Below, piece by piece: positions 23,252-29,690 of a DNA stretch of 64,000 nt. The position numbers were made by a program, and so were the translations under genes. Source of the DNA: Streptomyces canus. GTDB taxonomy: Bacteria > Actinomycetota > Actinomycetes > Streptomycetales > Streptomycetaceae. The stretch's first letter is position 1. Every line of letters starts with the position of its first letter. The stretch covers positions 9,176,001 through 9,240,000 of the forward strand of contig NZ_CP107989.1 of NCBI RefSeq assembly GCF_041435015.1, read 5' to 3'. A model generated the notes under the pieces. It saw nothing but the letters and a program-made list of their open reading frames with translations, searched no databases and was not told where the DNA came from.

Positions 23252-23518
23252 TCAGTTCCGCGAGTTCCCGAACAGCAGGCGATAGCCGATCAGCAGCACC
23301 AGGGAGCCGCCGATGGCAGCGCCCCAGGTGTAGAGGTCGAAGAAGTGACTCTCCACCGGGCGGTCGAGGAAGCGCGAGGAGAGCCAGCCGCCGACGAACG
23401 CTCCCGCGACCCCGATGAGGGTGGTGCCGATCAGGCCGCCCGGGTCGCGTCCCGGCAGCAGGATCTTGGCGATGGCTCCGGCGAGCAGACCCAGGATGAT
23501 CCAGCCGATGATGCCCAC
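23252..23518 (-). CDS. GlsB/YeaQ/YmgE-family stress-response membrane protein
   Basis: 88 residues with three hydrophobic segments (about 3-20, 28-45, 62-83). The glycine-rich start GIIGWIILGLLAGAIAKIL and the GLIGTTLIGVAGAFVGGWL segment match the transglycosylase-associated GlsB family of small membrane proteins induced by general or envelope stress. Molecular function is unknown. Two TTGCGCAA palindromes lie in the 259-bp region between this gene and the divergent ArsR gene, so it is a likely ArsR target. The ATG is preceded by GGAGGACTA. Confidence 0.85.
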   Translation of the reverse strand: MGIIGWIILGLLAGAIAKILLPGRDPGGLIGTTLIGVAGAFVGGWLSSRFLDRPVESHFFDLYTWGAAIGGSLVLLIGYRLLFGNSRN

Positions 23519-23584
23519 GTTGTAGTCCTCCAGTCAGGTCGGGGCCGGGGCAAGTCCGCCCGGCACCGTCCTCAAGTTGCCTGA

Positions 23585-23592
23585 TTGCGCAA
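23585..23592. promoter_or_regulatory. TTGCGCAA site A (between glsB-like and arsR)
   Basis: Palindrome TTGCGCAA 66 bp upstream of the GlsB-like start, with a half-site TTGC 4 nt to its left (23577-23580). It is one of four copies near the ArsR gene. Confidence 0.5.
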
Positions 23593-23674
23593 GCCTATGG
23601 ACTGATGCGAGGGACGAACGAGCCCTGCCGCGCCTGGTGACAAGTCGTCGACGTTCTTTCACACGCTTATTACA

Positions 23675-23682
23675 TTGCGCAA
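23675..23682. promoter_or_regulatory. TTGCGCAA site B (between glsB-like and arsR)
   Basis: The palindrome extends to ATTGCGCAAT (23674-23683). It lies about 95 bp upstream of the ArsR start and could serve autoregulation. Confidence 0.5.
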
Positions 23683-23777
23683 TCGACGAACTGGAGGTGC
23701 CCTCGTGGACGGAACCCCGCCGCCCTTACACTGAGACATCGCGCATGCGTCGACAGTGACCGGGACGGGAGGGGACC

Positions 23778-24134
23778 GTGGCGACACTCGCCGGTGGTTC
23801 GGAGGATCCGTCCGCCGAGGTACTGACGGAGGCGGCCGCCGCGTTCGGACTCCTCGCCTCCGCCGCCCGGCTGCACATCATGTGGGCGCTGTCCCAGGGC
23901 GAGAGCGACGTCACCCACCTCGCCGACCGGGTCGGCGGCGCGCTGCCCGCGGTCAGCCAGCACCTGGCCAAGCTGAAACTCGCCGGGCTCGTCCGCTCCC
24001 GCCGTGAGGGCCGCCGGCAGGTCTACTACGTCGACGACCCCGACATCGTGACCGTGGTCCGCGTCATGGTCGGCCAGCTCACGGCCCGTACAGCCCCGGC
24101 CGCTGCGCGCGGTACCGTCTCGGGCAGGCCTTGA
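23778..24134 (+). CDS. ArsR-family winged-helix repressor
   Basis: 118 residues. The winged HTH is clear: LLASAARLHIMWALSQGESD, HLADRVGGALPAVSQHLAKL (recognition helix about 50-62), then the wing RSRREGRRQVYYVDD. There is no CxC or CxxD metal site in the alpha-3 helix, and the C-terminal part lacks the usual DxHxxxE set, so the inducer is not evident. ArsR proteins usually repress their own and adjacent genes. TTGCGCAA sites upstream of this gene, the LCP gene and tatA suggest a local regulon. Start GTG 23778 is set by a GGAGGGG Shine-Dalgarno. Confidence 0.88.
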   Translation: MATLAGGSEDPSAEVLTEAAAAFGLLASAARLHIMWALSQGESDVTHLADRVGGALPAVSQHLAKLKLAGLVRSRREGRRQVYYVDDPDIVTVVRVMVGQLTARTAPAAARGTVSGRP

Positions 24135-24283
24135 TCCGTTTCCTGTGCCGGGTGCCGTCACGGGCGCGGGAAACGCCGTAGGTGAAGGCGAATGTGTCCG
24201 CGAGGTTGCCGCGTTCCTTCATGAGATCTCTCACCTGTGAAATGCGGCGGGCTCCGTGCTGCCCGGGCCAGGGGTTTGTTAGA

Positions 24284-24291
24284 TTGCGCAA
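24284..24291. promoter_or_regulatory. TTGCGCAA site C (upstream of LCP gene)
   Basis: TTGCGCAA followed 3 nt later by CGCAA (24295-24299), 113 bp upstream of the LCP start. The preceding sequence GTTTGTTAGA could hold a promoter. Confidence 0.5.
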
Positions 24292-24404
24292 CTACGCAAC
24301 CCAGGCGAAGTTCCTGCTTGGGCTGCCTGTACACCGCCGCGCTTGCCCGGCCGCCCACCCCATGGCCCGGCCTGAGAGGCCCGACCGTTTCCTGGGAGTG
24401 GTAG

Positions 24405-26111
24405 ATGAGCGACCCGTGGGACGGACCGGGCGGTCAGGCCACGCGCAGCCGCACCGGCCGGGTGCCGGAGCAGCGGGCGGGCGCGTCCGGCGGCGCGCCT
24501 CGGCCCGGAGGCCGGGCCGCGGCGCGGGCCGAGGCCCGCTCGCACGGTGGCAAGCGTTCGCGTCGCCGGGCCCGTCCGGTGCGACGCGGCAGGCGGGTGC
24601 TGAAGATCGTCGGGATGTGCCTGGCGATGCTCGTCCTGGCCACGGCCGGTGCCGGATGGTGGTTCTACCAGCACCTCAACGGCAACATCAACAGCGTCTC
24701 GCTCGACGGCAAGGGCGGTTCGGAGAAGGCCGACGCGTTCGGCCGCACCCCGATCAACATCCTGGTCATGGGCTCGGACGGCCGGACCAGCAAGGCGGAC
24801 TGCAAGCTGGGCGGCGGATGCTCCCAGACCGGCGTACAGACCGGAAACGGCAACGCCGACGTACAGATGGTGGTGCACATATCCGCCGACCGCTCCAACG
24901 CCACCGTCATGAGCATCCCCCGCGACACCATGGTCGACGTCCCGGCCTGCAAGGACACCGGGAGCGGCCAGTCCACGCCCGGCTACTACGGCCAGATCAA
25001 CAGCGCCCTCCAGTACGGTCCCGCCTGCCAGGTCGCCACCATCCACCGGCTCACCGGCATCCCCATCGACCACTTCGTCAAGCTCGACTTCTCCGGCGTG
25101 GTCAAGATGTCCGACGCGGTCGGCGGTGTCTCCGTGTGCGTCGACCACAACGTGTACGACACCTACTCGCACCTGAAACTGTCCAGTGGCAGCCACACGC
25201 TCAAGGGTGAGGCGGCCCTGGAGTTCGTCCGCTCCCGCCACGGCTTCGGGGACGGCAGCGACCTCGGCCGCACGGTCTCCCAGCACATATTCCTCAGCGC
25301 GATGATCCGGAAGTTCAAGAGCGCGGGCACGCTCACCGACCCCACCGCGGTCTACGACCTCGCCGACGCCGCCACCAAGGCGCTCACCGTGGACGACGGT
25401 CTCGGCAGCGTCAAGAAGCTGATCGGGCTCGCGGCCGACGTGAACAAGGTCCCCACCAAGCGGATGACCTTCACCACGATGCAGACCGCCGCCGATCCGA
25501 ACGACACCAACCGGGTGGTGGTGGGCGCGGGTGCCAAGGCCCTCTTCTCCAGCATCGCCGACGACCAGTCCCTGACCACCGGCTCCGGAAAGAAGTCCAC
25601 GGCGGCCTCCGCGACGGCCACGGCTTCGGCGGTACCCGCCTCCGAGATCGCCGTGACCGTCGAGAACGGCACCGAGATCACCGGCCGCGCCTCCGCGATC
25701 GCGAACGCGCTCACGGACCAGGGCTTCAGCTCCGCGACCACCACCGCCAACGCGCCGAGCCCGGCGACCACCACCACCCTCACCTACGGCACCGGCCGGA
25801 AGGCCGCGGCCCAGACGGCCGCCAAGACGCTCGGGCTCTCCACCTCACACCTCGAGGAGGGGACCGGTACCGGTCTGACCCTGGTGATCGGCAGCGACTG
25901 GACGAGCGGCACCACGTATCCGGGCGGTTCGTCCTCGCCGGCGCCCGCCGACACGAAGGCCGCGGTCTCCAACGCGCACGCCCAGACCGCCGACGAGGCC
26001 AAGAAGTGCGCCAAGGTCAGCCCCTACAAGACGGTCGCCCTCAACGGGGTCGCCATGACACCGGAGCAGGCGTACGCGGCGTCGCCCCACAAGAAGGACT
26101 CCGACGAGTGA
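24405..26111 (+). CDS. LytR-CpsA-Psr (LCP) family cell-wall glycopolymer ligase
   Basis: 568 residues. A basic, Gly/Arg-rich cytoplasmic tail (1-65) precedes one membrane helix (about 66-88). The extracytoplasmic LCP domain (about 115-330) carries NILVMGSDGRT, ADVQMVVHISADR, SIPRDTMVDVP, and EFVRSRHGFGDGSDLGR with the Arg residues that bind pyrophosphate of lipid-linked glycans. A LytR_C-type domain follows (about 410-500; IAVTVENGTEI) and the tail is Ser/Ala-rich. LCP enzymes attach wall glycopolymers to peptidoglycan from undecaprenyl carriers. Cysteine pairs in the LCP domain may form disulfides. A TTGCGCAA site lies upstream. ATG 24405 has GGGAGTGG before it. Confidence 0.88.
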   Translation: MSDPWDGPGGQATRSRTGRVPEQRAGASGGAPRPGGRAAARAEARSHGGKRSRRRARPVRRGRRVLKIVGMCLAMLVLATAGAGWWFYQHLNGNINSVSLDGKGGSEKADAFGRTPINILVMGSDGRTSKADCKLGGGCSQTGVQTGNGNADVQMVVHISADRSNATVMSIPRDTMVDVPACKDTGSGQSTPGYYGQINSALQYGPACQVATIHRLTGIPIDHFVKLDFSGVVKMSDAVGGVSVCVDHNVYDTYSHLKLSSGSHTLKGEAALEFVRSRHGFGDGSDLGRTVSQHIFLSAMIRKFKSAGTLTDPTAVYDLADAATKALTVDDGLGSVKKLIGLAADVNKVPTKRMTFTTMQTAADPNDTNRVVVGAGAKALFSSIADDQSLTTGSGKKSTAASATATASAVPASEIAVTVENGTEITGRASAIANALTDQGFSSATTTANAPSPATTTTLTYGTGRKAAAQTAAKTLGLSTSHLEEGTGTGLTLVIGSDWTSGTTYPGGSSSPAPADTKAAVSNAHAQTADEAKKCAKVSPYKTVALNGVAMTPEQAYAASPHKKDSDE

Positions 26112-26138
26112 GGCGGGGACGGGCCCGCGGTTGTACAG

Positions 26139-26146
26139 TTGCGCAA
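26139..26146. promoter_or_regulatory. TTGCGCAA site D (upstream of tatA-like gene)
   Basis: TTGCGCAA followed 4 nt later by GCAA, 33 bp upstream of the TatA-like start. This position would overlap the promoter. Confidence 0.5.
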
Positions 26147-26179
26147 GCTGGCAATCGTGAGTGAGAAGGGACGTGCGGC

Positions 26180-26446
26180 ATGCTGCGCAACGGACTGGAG
26201 CCCTGGCATCTGCTGATCGTGGCGATCATGATCATCTTGCTGTTCGGCTCGAAGAAGCTGCCCGAGGCCGCCCGCGGGCTCGGCAAGTCGATGCGCATCC
26301 TCAAGAGCGAGGCCAAGGCGATGAAGGAGGACGGCACGGCCCACTCCTCCGCGGCCCCCGCTGAGTCTGCCCCGCAGGTCGTCCAGTCCGCGCCGGTGGA
26401 GACCACGGCAGCGCAGCCGACGGCCGAGAGCAACCCTGCCCACTGA
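26180..26446 (+). CDS. tatA: TatA/E-type twin-arginine translocase subunit
   Basis: 88 residues. A short N-terminal membrane helix ([20 protein letters not shown], about 7-25) with the FGSKKLPE hinge is followed by an amphipathic helix ([20 protein letters not shown]) and a polar Ala/Pro/Glu-rich tail. These are the hallmarks of TatA, which forms the translocation pore for folded proteins. It stands alone, without tatB or tatC, so it is probably a TatA paralogue. A TTGCGCAA palindrome 33 bp upstream links it to the ArsR gene. ATG has GAGAAGGGA about 10 nt upstream. Confidence 0.88.
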
Positions 26447-26659
26447 GCTCCCGTACGGCGTCCTTCGCCGGGCGACGGTCTCCTCGGCGTGGCCGAAGAA
26501 CTCACCGTCGAGGCGGCCCAACAGCCGTACAGCAAAAGCGTGTTGCGGCGCGGAGCGGCATGTCGTCGACGAAACCCGGCTGCCCGGACGGTGATTGCGG
26601 GAGCATTCCGGCCCGTGTCCGTGATGCAGGCGGCGGCGATCGCTGTCGGTGGGGGCAAC

Positions 26660-26665
26660 TAAGCT
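26660..26665 (+). promoter_or_regulatory. -10 element of leaderless kinase transcript
   Basis: TAAGCT ends 7 nt before ATG 26673 and there is no Shine-Dalgarno, which favours this ATG over a GTG 24 nt upstream. Confidence 0.4.
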
Positions 26666-26672
26666 CCCGCCC

Positions 26673-28409
26673 ATGAGCGAGGCAGACGAGGTCCCCGGCA
26701 GACGAGTCGTCGACGGGCGCTTCGCGTTGGAAGCGCGTCTCGGCGGCGGCGGGATGGGCACGGTCTGGCGGGCCAGGGACCTGGTGCTGCACAGGATGGT
26801 CGCGGTCAAGGAGGTCCGCCCGCCGGACCGGGACCTCGCCGAGTACGACCCCGACAGCGCGCGGATGCTGCGCGAGCGGGTGCTGCGCGAGGCGCGGGCC
26901 CTGGCCCGGATCGACCATCCCAACGTCGTCACCATCCACCACATCGTCGACGGCGGCGACGGCACCTACCCGTGGATCGTCATGGAGCTGGTCAGCGGCG
27001 GCTCGCTCGCCGACCGGCTGACCCGGGAGCCGATGCCGCCGGCCGAGGCGGCGCGGATCGGCCGGGGCGTGCTGGCCGCGCTGGCCGCCGCGCACGAGGC
27101 CGGAATCCAGCACCGGGACGTCAAGCCCGCCAACGTCCTGCTCAGGTCCGACGGGCGCCCCGTCCTCACCGACTTCGGCATCGCCGCGATTCGCGAGACG
27201 ACCAGCCTCACGGCCACCGGCTCCATCATCGGCACCCCCGACTTCATGGCACCGGAGCGGATCTCGGGCCACGAGGGCGGCGCCGCCTCCGACCTGTGGT
27301 CACTCGCGATGATGCTGTACACCGCCGTGGAGGGCCACCACCCGCTGCGCCGCGGCAGCACCCTCGCCACCCTCGCGGCCGTCCTCAACGAGGACGTGCC
27401 GCCGCCCGTGCGGGCCGGTGCCCTGGGTGACGTACTGATGAACGTGCTCGTACGGGATCCGGCGGCGCGGCCGTCGTCCGCCGTGCTGGACCGACGGCTG
27501 GCCGAGATCGAGTCGGGGTCCGTCGGCCCGGTGACCGCGTGGCACCAGCCCACGGCCCCGTACCCGCCGTTCGCCGGTGCGGCCCCTTCGTACCCGGGGG
27601 CCTTCGCCCCGCGCACGGCTCCCCTCACCGGAGCCCCCGCTCCGGCGGGCGTAGCAGGCCCCGTCGGATTCGGGCCGCCACCCGTTCCCGCCGGGCCCGG
27701 CCAGCCGGTGACCTCGCCCGTCCGGGCGGGACGCAAGAGCGGGGCGGGACTGCGTGTCGTGCTCAGCGTCTCGGGGACCTCGCTGGCCGGGGCCCTGGTC
27801 CTGATGTGGTGGCTGCTGCCCTTCGGGGGAGACGCGGGCGGATCGGGCGAGGCGGCGGACGGCGGCGCCTCCTCCTCCGTCGCATCGGCCCGCGAGGCGA
27901 CCGGCTCCCCGGCCGCCGCCCCGGCCGTCCAGCAGTCGAGGGACACGACGACCACGAGCCTGCTCACCCCCGACGGCATCCGCACCGCCATCAAGGCGTT
28001 GAAGCAGGAGACCGGGCGGGACAGGTTCGGCGACTTCAGCGTCTACGAGGACTTCGTGTCGGCCGAGGTGATGGTCAAAGGCAGCGACAGCAAGTACGAC
28101 ACCTACACCTACCGTCCGGGACAGGGCGTGGAGAAGGGCCTCATCAAGGGCACCCTGTCCGGCGGCGACCAGCCCTTCCGCCTCGACGGCTTCAACTGGG
28201 ACAAAGTGCCCACGCTCCTGGAAGAGGCCCGGAAGAAGCTCGACGTCGACCATCCGAACACCCGTTACGTGCTGGTGAGACAGCCCAACGACGTCTTCGA
28301 CACCCCCCTCGGCATGGCCGTCTACCTCAGCAACGAATACAGCCAGTCCGGCTATCTGGAGGCGAACACCAAGGGCAAGGTGACCCGCGTCATGCCCGCG
28401 GAGGACTGA
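26673..28409 (+). CDS. Eukaryotic-type Ser/Thr protein kinase with extracytoplasmic domain
   Basis: 578 residues. The kinase domain (about 14-275) has all key elements: glycine loop GGGGMGTVW, VAVKEV (Lys 46), HRDVKPANVLL (catalytic Asp), TDFGIA and GTPDFMAPER. A Pro/Ala-rich linker follows (about 285-355), then one membrane helix (about 363-385) and an extracytoplasmic domain of about 170 residues (TPDGIRTAIKALKQETGRD onward) with no PASTA repeat, recognised only as a hypothetical sensor. It would phosphorylate cytoplasmic targets in response to an outside signal. The next gene, converging, is a PP2C-type phosphatase, but no operon link is shown. Confidence 0.9.
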   Translation: MSEADEVPGRRVVDGRFALEARLGGGGMGTVWRARDLVLHRMVAVKEVRPPDRDLAEYDPDSARMLRERVLREARALARIDHPNVVTIHHIVDGGDGTYPWIVMELVSGGSLADRLTREPMPPAEAARIGRGVLAALAAAHEAGIQHRDVKPANVLLRSDGRPVLTDFGIAAIRETTSLTATGSIIGTPDFMAPERISGHEGGAASDLWSLAMMLYTAVEGHHPLRRGSTLATLAAVLNEDVPPPVRAGALGDVLMNVLVRDPAARPSSAVLDRRLAEIESGSVGPVTAWHQPTAPYPPFAGAAPSYPGAFAPRTAPLTGAPAPAGVAGPVGFGPPPVPAGPGQPVTSPVRAGRKSGAGLRVVLSVSGTSLAGALVLMWWLLPFGGDAGGSGEAADGGASSSVASAREATGSPAAAPAVQQSRDTTTTSLLTPDGIRTAIKALKQETGRDRFGDFSVYEDFVSAEVMVKGSDSKYDTYTYRPGQGVEKGLIKGTLSGGDQPFRLDGFNWDKVPTLLEEARKKLDVDHPNTRYVLVRQPNDVFDTPLGMAVYLSNEYSQSGYLEANTKGKVTRVMPAED

Positions 28410-28460
28410 CGGCCTTCCCGGGGGGCTCGTACAGCGCTGAGGCGCCGCTACCGGCTCGTC

Positions 28461-29690
28461 TCACAGGCGGATGACGACGAGAGCGGTGTCGTCGGCGTTG
28501 CCGGTGGGTGGGAGCAGCTCGGCCAGGAGCGCGTCGGCCAGGTCCTCGGGGGCGGCGTGGCGGTGGCGGGTGAGCGTGTCGGAGAGGCGTGCCAGGCCGG
28601 TGTCGATGTCCTCGGTGCGGCGCTCGATCAGACCGTCGGTGTAGAGGACCAGCGTGGCGCCCTCGTCGAAGGGCGCGGTGGCCTCGGGACGGATGGTGTG
28701 TTCGAGGCTGGCACCGAGCGGCGGGTCGGTGGCCCGGTCCAGGAAGGTGACCGTGCCGTCGGGGCGGAGCAGGGCGGGCGGGAGGTGGCCCGCGCTGCTG
28801 TAGGTGAGGGTGTGGTCGCCCCAGTCGATGAAGGCCGTCGCCGCCGTCGTCGACTCGGCGCCGTCGACGGAGCGGGCGTACAGCCCGAGCGCCTCCAGAG
28901 CCCGGGCAGGCCCGTCGGCGACGCGGGTGGCGGCGCTGAGCGCGCTGCGCAGCTGACCCATGACGCAGGCGGCCGCCAGACCGTGACCGACCACGTCACC
29001 GACGGCCACCGCGAGACAGTCGTCGGCCAGGTCGACGAGGTCGTACCAGTCACCGCACACGTTCAGGGAGCCGACGGCGGGCCGGTAGCGCACGGCCGCC
29101 TGATGGTGGCCGAGGGGCCCCGGGGCGGGCAGCAGGGCCTCCTGCAGAGCCAGGGCGACCTCGCGTTCGCGGGCGTGTGCCTTGCGCAGGCGTTCGTTGA
29201 CCTCCTGGAGTTCCCGGGCGCGGGTGTACAGCTCGGCCTCCAGCACGCGTGCCCGGCTGTCGCCCCCCGGTCCGCCGCGGGCACGAATGAGTTCGGTGAC
29301 CTCCTCCACCCGGTGCACGAGCAGCTTCACCTTCCCGTCGGTGCCGAGGACGGGCGCGTTGACCGGGCTCCAGAAGTGCTCCTGCCAGTGGCCGGCCCGA
29401 TGGGGATCCTCGATGTCGTAGCGGAGCACCGCCATCGTGTCGCGCTCCCCGGAGGCCACCGCACGCAGCATCGACTCCCGCGTCTCCCGCATCCCGGCCG
29501 CGGCCGAATCATTGGGGTTCTCGGGGAAGACATCGAAGATGTAGCGGCCCAGCAACTGCTCGCGGGCACGACCGGTGAGCCGTAGGAAGTCGTCGTTGAC
29601 GTCGACGTACACCAGCTCGGGCGTCAGCAACGCCACCATGCCGGGCAGAGCCCGGAACACCGCCGCGTAATCGATGTGCGGTTTCCTCAT
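28461..29690 (-). CDS. PAS domain PP2C-type (SpoIIE/RsbU) phosphatase
   Basis: 409 residues. An N-terminal PAS domain (about 5-135; FRALPGMVALLTPELVYVDV, LLGRYIFDVFP) is followed by a coiled linker (about 150-180; ELYTRARELQEVNERLRKAH) and a SpoIIE phosphatase domain (about 190-409) with the metal-binding Asp residues in VCGDWYDLVDL, AVAVGDVVGHGL, VLYTDGLIERR and GNADDTALVVIRL. Such proteins dephosphorylate anti-sigma-factor antagonists and switch on stress sigma factors in Streptomyces. The signal sensed by the PAS domain is unknown. ATG at 29690 has no strong Shine-Dalgarno. Confidence 0.88.
   Translation of the reverse strand: MRKPHIDYAAVFRALPGMVALLTPELVYVDVNDDFLRLTGRAREQLLGRYIFDVFPENPNDSAAAGMRETRESMLRAVASGERDTMAVLRYDIEDPHRAGHWQEHFWSPVNAPVLGTDGKVKLLVHRVEEVTELIRARGGPGGDSRARVLEAELYTRARELQEVNERLRKAHAREREVALALQEALLPAPGPLGHHQAAVRYRPAVGSLNVCGDWYDLVDLADDCLAVAVGDVVGHGLAAACVMGQLRSALSAATRVADGPARALEALGLYARSVDGAESTTAATAFIDWGDHTLTYSSAGHLPPALLRPDGTVTFLDRATDPPLGASLEHTIRPEATAPFDEGATLVLYTDGLIERRTEDIDTGLARLSDTLTRHRHAAPEDLADALLAELLPPTGNADDTALVVIRL

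Follow-up and report, generated by a model that had tools for sequence, protein, structure and literature searches.

A conserved palindrome around an ArsR-type gene marks a candidate regulon of envelope genes in Streptomyces

The palindrome TTGCGCAA, which surrounds an ArsR-type regulator gene in the 64-kb stretch of Streptomyces DNA analyzed here (the window), very probably marks a real and apparently undescribed control circuit, and sequence comparison points to the ArsR protein as by far the best candidate regulator. We consider it likely that the four palindromic sites of the window (O1–O4) are operators of one local regulon, bound by ArsR, acting in repression and released upon a change in the envelope or in divalent cations. 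The original prediction had regarded the regulon as undescribed, and we likewise found no paper describing it in a search that covered neither preprints nor most subscription journals. The circuit connects an LCP wall-polymer ligase and a second Tat subunit with a magnesium-type ATPase and with TerD proteins, whose role has long been unclear. It offers a sharp and testable list of operators and targets for a clade of ArsR proteins most of which are without the usual sensing residues, and the many tatA, lcp and terD paralogues in Streptomyces would gain a common regulator and a condition under which to study them.

Results

Clustering of the Palindrome in the Window

An exact count of TTGCGCAA in the window yields the four predicted copies, at positions 23585, 23675, 24284 and 26139, and no others. 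All four are located outside called genes (gene calls are from a simple custom script and start sites are approximate). In dinucleotide shuffles of the window the palindrome occurs on average 0.29 times and at most twice, and 0 of 100 shuffles reach four copies. The whole genome (10,677,318 bases) contains 58 copies, versus 95 for the pattern read backwards. The 8-mer is therefore not enriched genome-wide, and the unusual feature is its clustering: four copies are present within 2,562 bp where a Poisson model expects 0.014 (P = 1.5e-9), and over the full 64 kb the expectation is 0.35 (P = 4.6e-4). A randomly frequent motif had been named in advance as a reason to doubt the prediction; by these figures the cluster is non-random.

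The original prediction also held that three copies carry an extra GCAA/TTGC half-site at a distance of 3–4 nt. Three copies do (TTGC at 23577, GCAA at 24296 and GCAA at 26151), but the spacing is always exactly 4 nt. The copy at 23675 has no GCAA, but its outer TT/AA pairs are present. Counted from the first core base, the aligned sites have TT at -8/-7 and AA at +14/+15, resulting in a full dyad of 24 bp, TT-N6-TTGCGCAA-N6-AA, of which the half-sites are the outer arms.

Genes and Putative Operators of the Window

The ArsR/SmtB-type winged-helix regulator (23778–24134, plus strand, 118 aa) contains no cysteine and is the proposed repressor. It scores above the cut-offs for PF01022 (E 3.1e-9; 37 bits versus 22) and NF033788 (77.3 versus 55), which places it in the ArsR/SmtB family. 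Three surrounding genes are predicted targets: on the minus strand a gene for a GlsB/YeaQ-type, transglycosylase-associated small membrane protein of 88 aa (23252–23518; PF04226, E 6.1e-9), and on the plus strand genes for an LCP (LytR-CpsA-Psr) glycopolymer transferase of 568 aa (24405–26111; PF03816, E 8e-45, and PF13399; above the TIGR00350 cut-off) and for a second TatA subunit of 88 aa, TatA2 (26180–26446; PF02416, E 2.3e-15; above the NF001854 and TIGR01411 cut-offs). The cluster is followed by genes for a Ser/Thr protein kinase and a PAS-SpoIIE phosphatase (26649–29690), a pair that is operator-free in the window and retained, also operator-free, in the two closest relatives (L066 and L067).

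Putative operator O1 (23577–23600, minus strand; core 23585–23592) lies at a minus-strand -10-like TAGGCT (23597–23592) serving GlsB and has lost the right outer AA; its exact 8-mer is retained in L066 and L067. O2 (23667–23690, plus strand; core 23675–23682, TTATTACATTGCGCAATCGACGAA) overlaps a -10-like TACATT (23671–23676) and is retained in the same two loci and in L147, L148 and L149. O3 (24276–24299, plus strand; core 24284–24291, TTGTTAGATTGCGCAACTACGCAA) overlaps the extended -10-like element TGTTAGATT of LCP (TAGATT, 24280–24285), and O4 (26131–26154, plus strand; core 26139–26146, TTGTACAGTTGCGCAAGCTGGCAA) overlaps the -10-like TACAGT of TatA2 (26134–26139). The coordinate difference from the near core end to the start codon is 67 for GlsB, 96 for the GTG of ArsR, 114 for the ATG of LCP and 34 for the ATG of TatA2.

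The four sites had been assigned to the intergenic regions upstream of the GlsB, ArsR, LCP and TatA genes, and intergenic they all are. The copy at 23675, however, is not simply the ArsR operator, because a separate, operator-free -10-like element, TACACT (23727–23732, plus strand), identified by eye as a putative proximal ArsR promoter, lies nearer to the ArsR start. A related element, CCTA[CG]ACTG, mostly without operator, precedes ArsR in 40 of the 60 loci compared and is absent from the opposite strand in all 60. As O2 overlaps its TANNNT hexamer further upstream, ArsR may be partly self-controlled in the clade formed by the window and its closest relatives; O2 is a candidate for a second, controlled ArsR promoter or for a second GlsB site.

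Conservation of the Dyad and Its Target Genes

For locus comparison we took 60 loci from the ArsR search (L046–L105). In 49 of these a TatA, LCP or GlsB gene, at whatever place in the locus, has an exact TTGCGCAA 5–220 bp upstream, so that the conservation at orthologous promoters proposed earlier as a check is found; the 8-mer is present somewhere in 54 of the 60. A position matrix was derived from the exact sites near genes in these loci and the window, leaving out 11 of 86 sites that scored below 20 (seven lay within the start of a TatA2 coding sequence, three were at roadblock/PPOX genes, and one was located in L074 between ArsR and GlsB). Applied to 141 loci (the 60, 80 further named loci and the window), it identified 232 sites, 225 of which are non-redundant. 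Rescanning the loci used for its construction is circular; a fairer test is the 80-locus set outside matrix building (L147–L226), in which at least five loci are from species also represented in the first set and which yielded 135 sites versus 0 in the reversed sequence. The reversed sequence of L046–L105 likewise gave no match.

After merging genes with identical last 50 residues, a site precedes TatA2 in 71 of 76 genes, LCP in 63 of 75, GlsB in 18 of 27, a small uncharacterized protein in 21 of 25, TerD191 in 18 of 29, TerD375 in 9 of 12, TatB2 in all 10, the uncharacterized protein T8 in 7 of 8 and a PhoA-like protein in 3 of 5. The consensus of the TatA2 group is GGTTGTACAGTTGCGCAAtgt.GCAAC. 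Clustering and conservation thus support the regulon that had been postulated, but it is not as small as supposed, since TerD, TatB2 and the small protein belong to it as well. The ArsR genes themselves have an operator upstream in 17 of 129 non-redundant cases, and most species lack one there. No site was found within the DNA examined for 21 of the 141 ArsR loci, and several of those genomes have sites elsewhere.

Sites unlinked to ArsR face LCP, TatA2, TerD, T8 and small protein genes in several genomes, and in one genome an SLT transglycosylase gene; a few other sites (L292 and L303) have no called gene start within 300 bp. Operator-like sites also occur upstream of FtsW/RodA-type (SEDS) genes in L297 and L301, whose neighbors resemble lytic enzymes by eye, which suggests that in some species the regulon includes peptidoglycan polymerases. 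In L290 and L298 a site lies 253 bp from a D-hydantoinase-like gene, which is probably not a target, because TerD is nearer to the site. In L192 an MgtC family gene (585–1379; PF02308) is located 326 bp from a weaker operator-like site (score 22); as a second magnesium-related link this is only a lead.

In the genome to which the window belongs, a scan with an operator model (R1) ranked the four window sites and a site at the second ArsR locus as the best five distinct places (E < 0.01 for two and 0.09–0.21 for three, with the next match at E 2), a ranking that is partly by construction as the 69 sites of the model include these five; 5 of 66 site references had been left out of the model. At this second locus (L046, around 5598) the operator precedes a gene for a 111-aa protein, WXG100-like by eye with no Pfam match, followed by genes for proteins of 416 and 167 aa.

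That the palindrome is a matter of chance, or a general genomic repeat, could be argued from its 58 genomic copies, 53 of which lie outside the window and the second ArsR locus. We give this explanation next to no credence and rejected it: conservation at orthologous promoters refutes it, and the clustering (0 of 100 shuffles), the 135 sites versus 0 reversed matches and the distribution over genomes (49 of 50 versus 3 of 100, see below) all stand against it.

Association of the Operator With ArsR Across Genomes

A search with the window ArsR in 150 Streptomyces genomes gave a match at E <=1e-20 in 66, and 50 of the 150 have a close orthologue (E < 1e-38). The 24-bp pattern is present in 52 of the 150 genomes, in 105 copies, where the reversed pattern gives three single matches. 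Of the 50 genomes that have a close ArsR, 49 contain the pattern, versus 3 of the 100 others (Fisher 1e-34, with the 50 genomes and 105 site counts transferred by hand); as this test ignores kinship and Streptomyces genomes are related, it overstates their independence. A longer TatA2 motif is present in 45 of the 150 genomes (reversed control: 1), 44 of which have a close ArsR; the remaining one (G010) has a partial ArsR match. The ArsR-containing genome without an exact 24-bp site (G028) has a degenerate one beside ArsR only. In 346 genomes of the phylum the operator search gave matches in eight: three are Streptomyces with strong matches, all with a close ArsR, and the other five, with E values of 0.004–0.024 and no listed ArsR, are regarded as chance. 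No such site was found at 14 loci of more distant ArsR homologues (L261–L274).

One of the exceptions is instructive. In genome G120, an almost perfect palindrome, TTCGTCAGTTGCGCAACTGGCGAA, lies 66 bp upstream of the start of an ArsR of 45% identity, which is the most direct hint that this type of ArsR may read TTGCGCAA. A search for relatives of this ArsR in 295 genomes returned one, G120 itself.

Two further genomes (G005 and G080) have clear sites before small protein and LCP genes and no close ArsR. Such sites speak against an exclusive link, and could be relics or belong to another regulator. A 33-bit partial match had suggested a distant ArsR next to the G005 site, which a longer stretch of sequence did not confirm. 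Together with the rarity of sites at ArsR itself, these two genomes are what favors the explanation that the sites belong to another regulator, with ArsR a passenger or a fellow member of the cluster. We hold this to be unlikely in view of the 49 of 50 co-occurrence and of the divergent ArsR of G120, whose own promoter contains the palindrome; moreover, no other regulator family was noticed to recur across the loci, in a non-systematic scan of loci that were chosen by ArsR.

Two other elements were observed along the way. The genome of the window encodes a third, more distant ArsR homologue (G000:C1:8558107-8558385) with no operator nearby, and in L083, L096, L097, L099 and L102 a different palindrome-like sequence, TTCTACAGCAACGTAGAA, with close variants, is located between ArsR and a divergent TerB-like gene.

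Position of the Sites Relative to Predicted Promoters

In 69 of 71 TatA2 sites the last base of a TANNNT hexamer coincides with the first T of the core. In 56 of 63 LCP sites it coincides with the second T, and in 10 of 19 GlsB sites the hexamer is found at the O1 offset. The sites therefore show the inverted repeat overlapping the promoter region of its target that is typical of the ArsR family, with promoters predicted from sequence. A dimer bound to the dyad would sit over the -10 element and the transcription start, so that repression is the natural reading at TatA2, LCP and GlsB, and the overlap at TatA2 and LCP fits a repressing role. In many species TatA2 and LCP are divergent genes with a single operator between them, which could act on the two together. 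No TANNNT is found in the core at TerD191 (0 of 21 sites) and TatB2 (0 of 9), and control at these and some other sites may differ.

This last group of sites would also suit an activator or sigma-factor element instead of a repression operator, as would the TatA2 group, in which no conserved -35 hexamer is visible upstream by eye. We regard such a function as very unlikely: the core lies over the -10-like hexamer, a repressor position, at TatA2, at LCP and at about half of the GlsB sites, and both the perfect dyad symmetry and the ArsR family membership suit a repressor.

Sensing Residues and Relatives of the ArsR Protein

The original prediction described an ArsR without a known metal site. 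The protein indeed lacks a canonical one: it has no cysteine and hence no CxC, no alpha5 histidine pair and no Asp-x-His...His-x-x-Glu/Asp/His arrangement. Cysteine is absent from 42 of 57 close orthologues (the 60 loci without the three distant ones, L103–L105), and the recognition-helix stretch is nearly invariant among orthologues. Two proteins stand apart. In L094 (the ArsR of G051) alpha5 carries D-x-H-x10-H-x2-D, which is like the SmtB zinc site and unlike the other 56 orthologues, and in the ArsR of L090 the only CxC is located at the extreme C-terminus.

Among proteins of known structure, the best profile match is 6o8k (SqrR); 3pqj, of the same SqrR/BigR group, also matches. SqrR and BigR sense persulfides by means of two cysteines, whereas the window ArsR and most of its close orthologues have none, and with NF040642 the window ArsR scores 40.2 bits versus a cut-off of 155, placing it outside this subgroup. 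NolR (4omy, 4omz and 4on0) is an ArsR-fold match as well; it is not known to have a metal site and acts on several promoters, but its operator and gene set differ from those found here.

SmtB and NmtR are also among the better matches of known structure. Metalloregulators are known to be paired with P-type ATPases, as in NmtR-NmtA, CmtR, ZiaR-ZiaA and CadC-CadA. The system described here resembles such pairs in having an ArsR-type gene beside a P-type ATPase gene and a palindrome overlapping -10-like regions. It differs from them in the lack of a canonical Cys/His metal site in the window ArsR, in an ATPase of the magnesium type IIIB (two examples tested) instead of a heavy-metal exporter, and in the location of the operators, which are found at envelope genes and, for the most part, not at arsR-ATPase.

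The Proposed Circuit

In the mechanism that we favor, ArsR and its second copy, about 90% identical, would bind the 24-bp pseudo-palindrome as a winged-helix dimer. Bound ArsR would block RNA polymerase at GlsB, LCP and TatA2, where the core overlaps the -10-like region. A trigger, which most probably has to do with the state of the envelope or of divalent cations, would free ArsR, upon which wall, membrane and export genes would be switched on. In most species the circuit would consist of the ArsR and magnesium-type ATPase pair under an operator-free promoter, with neighboring and unlinked targets. In the genome of the window the ArsR-ATPase pair would have survived at the second locus, with the window left without an ATPase. 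One argument against this scheme is that ArsR has no operator in most loci (17 of 129 do), which is unusual for an ArsR repressor.

Gene order in S. coelicolor can be compared with this arrangement. SCO3768 is given as tatA2 (PMC5001237). A tellurium resistance protein is annotated at SCO3767 (PMC7244524), and SCO3769 is named a transcriptional regulator (PMC3293853). As far as these annotations go, the order SCO3769-SCO3768-SCO3767 fits ArsR-TatA2-TerD, and we infer from them that SCO3769 is the S. coelicolor counterpart of the window ArsR.

The P-Type ATPase Partner

A same-strand gene for a P-type ATPase, recognized by DKTGT and a length of 700–1100 residues, follows ArsR in 81 of 129 non-redundant cases (merged here on the last 60 residues of ArsR). 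The called genes overlap by 11–35 bases in at least 20 cases, and the median gap is 49. The two ATPases tested, those of L057 and L046, score 668 and 642 bits with TIGR01524 (cut-off 610.75) and are thus predicted to be magnesium-translocating. The second ArsR copy in the genome of the window, 89–90% identical, is followed by an ATPase gene and has an operator beside it. In the window, DKTGT is absent in any frame, showing that it encodes no such ATPase, and LCP directly follows ArsR. The notion that every operator serves an ArsR-ATPase promoter was dismissed, as the ArsR upstream regions are operator-free in most of the 60 loci.

A more specific reading of the circuit, which we consider fairly unlikely, is that ArsR and the magnesium-type ATPase form a one-component magnesium and envelope sensor, comparable to PhoPQ, that activates LCP, TatA2/TatB2, TerD and GlsB genes, along with FtsW/RodA-type and MgtC genes in some species. 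An ArsR without the usual Cys/His ligands would then respond to magnesium or to an acid-damaged envelope, perhaps via a conserved DDPD stretch or via the ATPase. Wall polymers, LCP proteins and magnesium transport are a theme of the SigE/CseBC and PhoPQ-type envelope and magnesium regulons; unlike these, the circuit proposed here is a one-component ArsR system with its own operator, and no sensor kinase or sigma factor was noticed at the operators. In L102 (7992–11012), ArsR and a magnesium-type ATPase are encoded in one open frame of 1006 aa with no intervening stop, which may be a naturally occurring regulator-transporter fusion.
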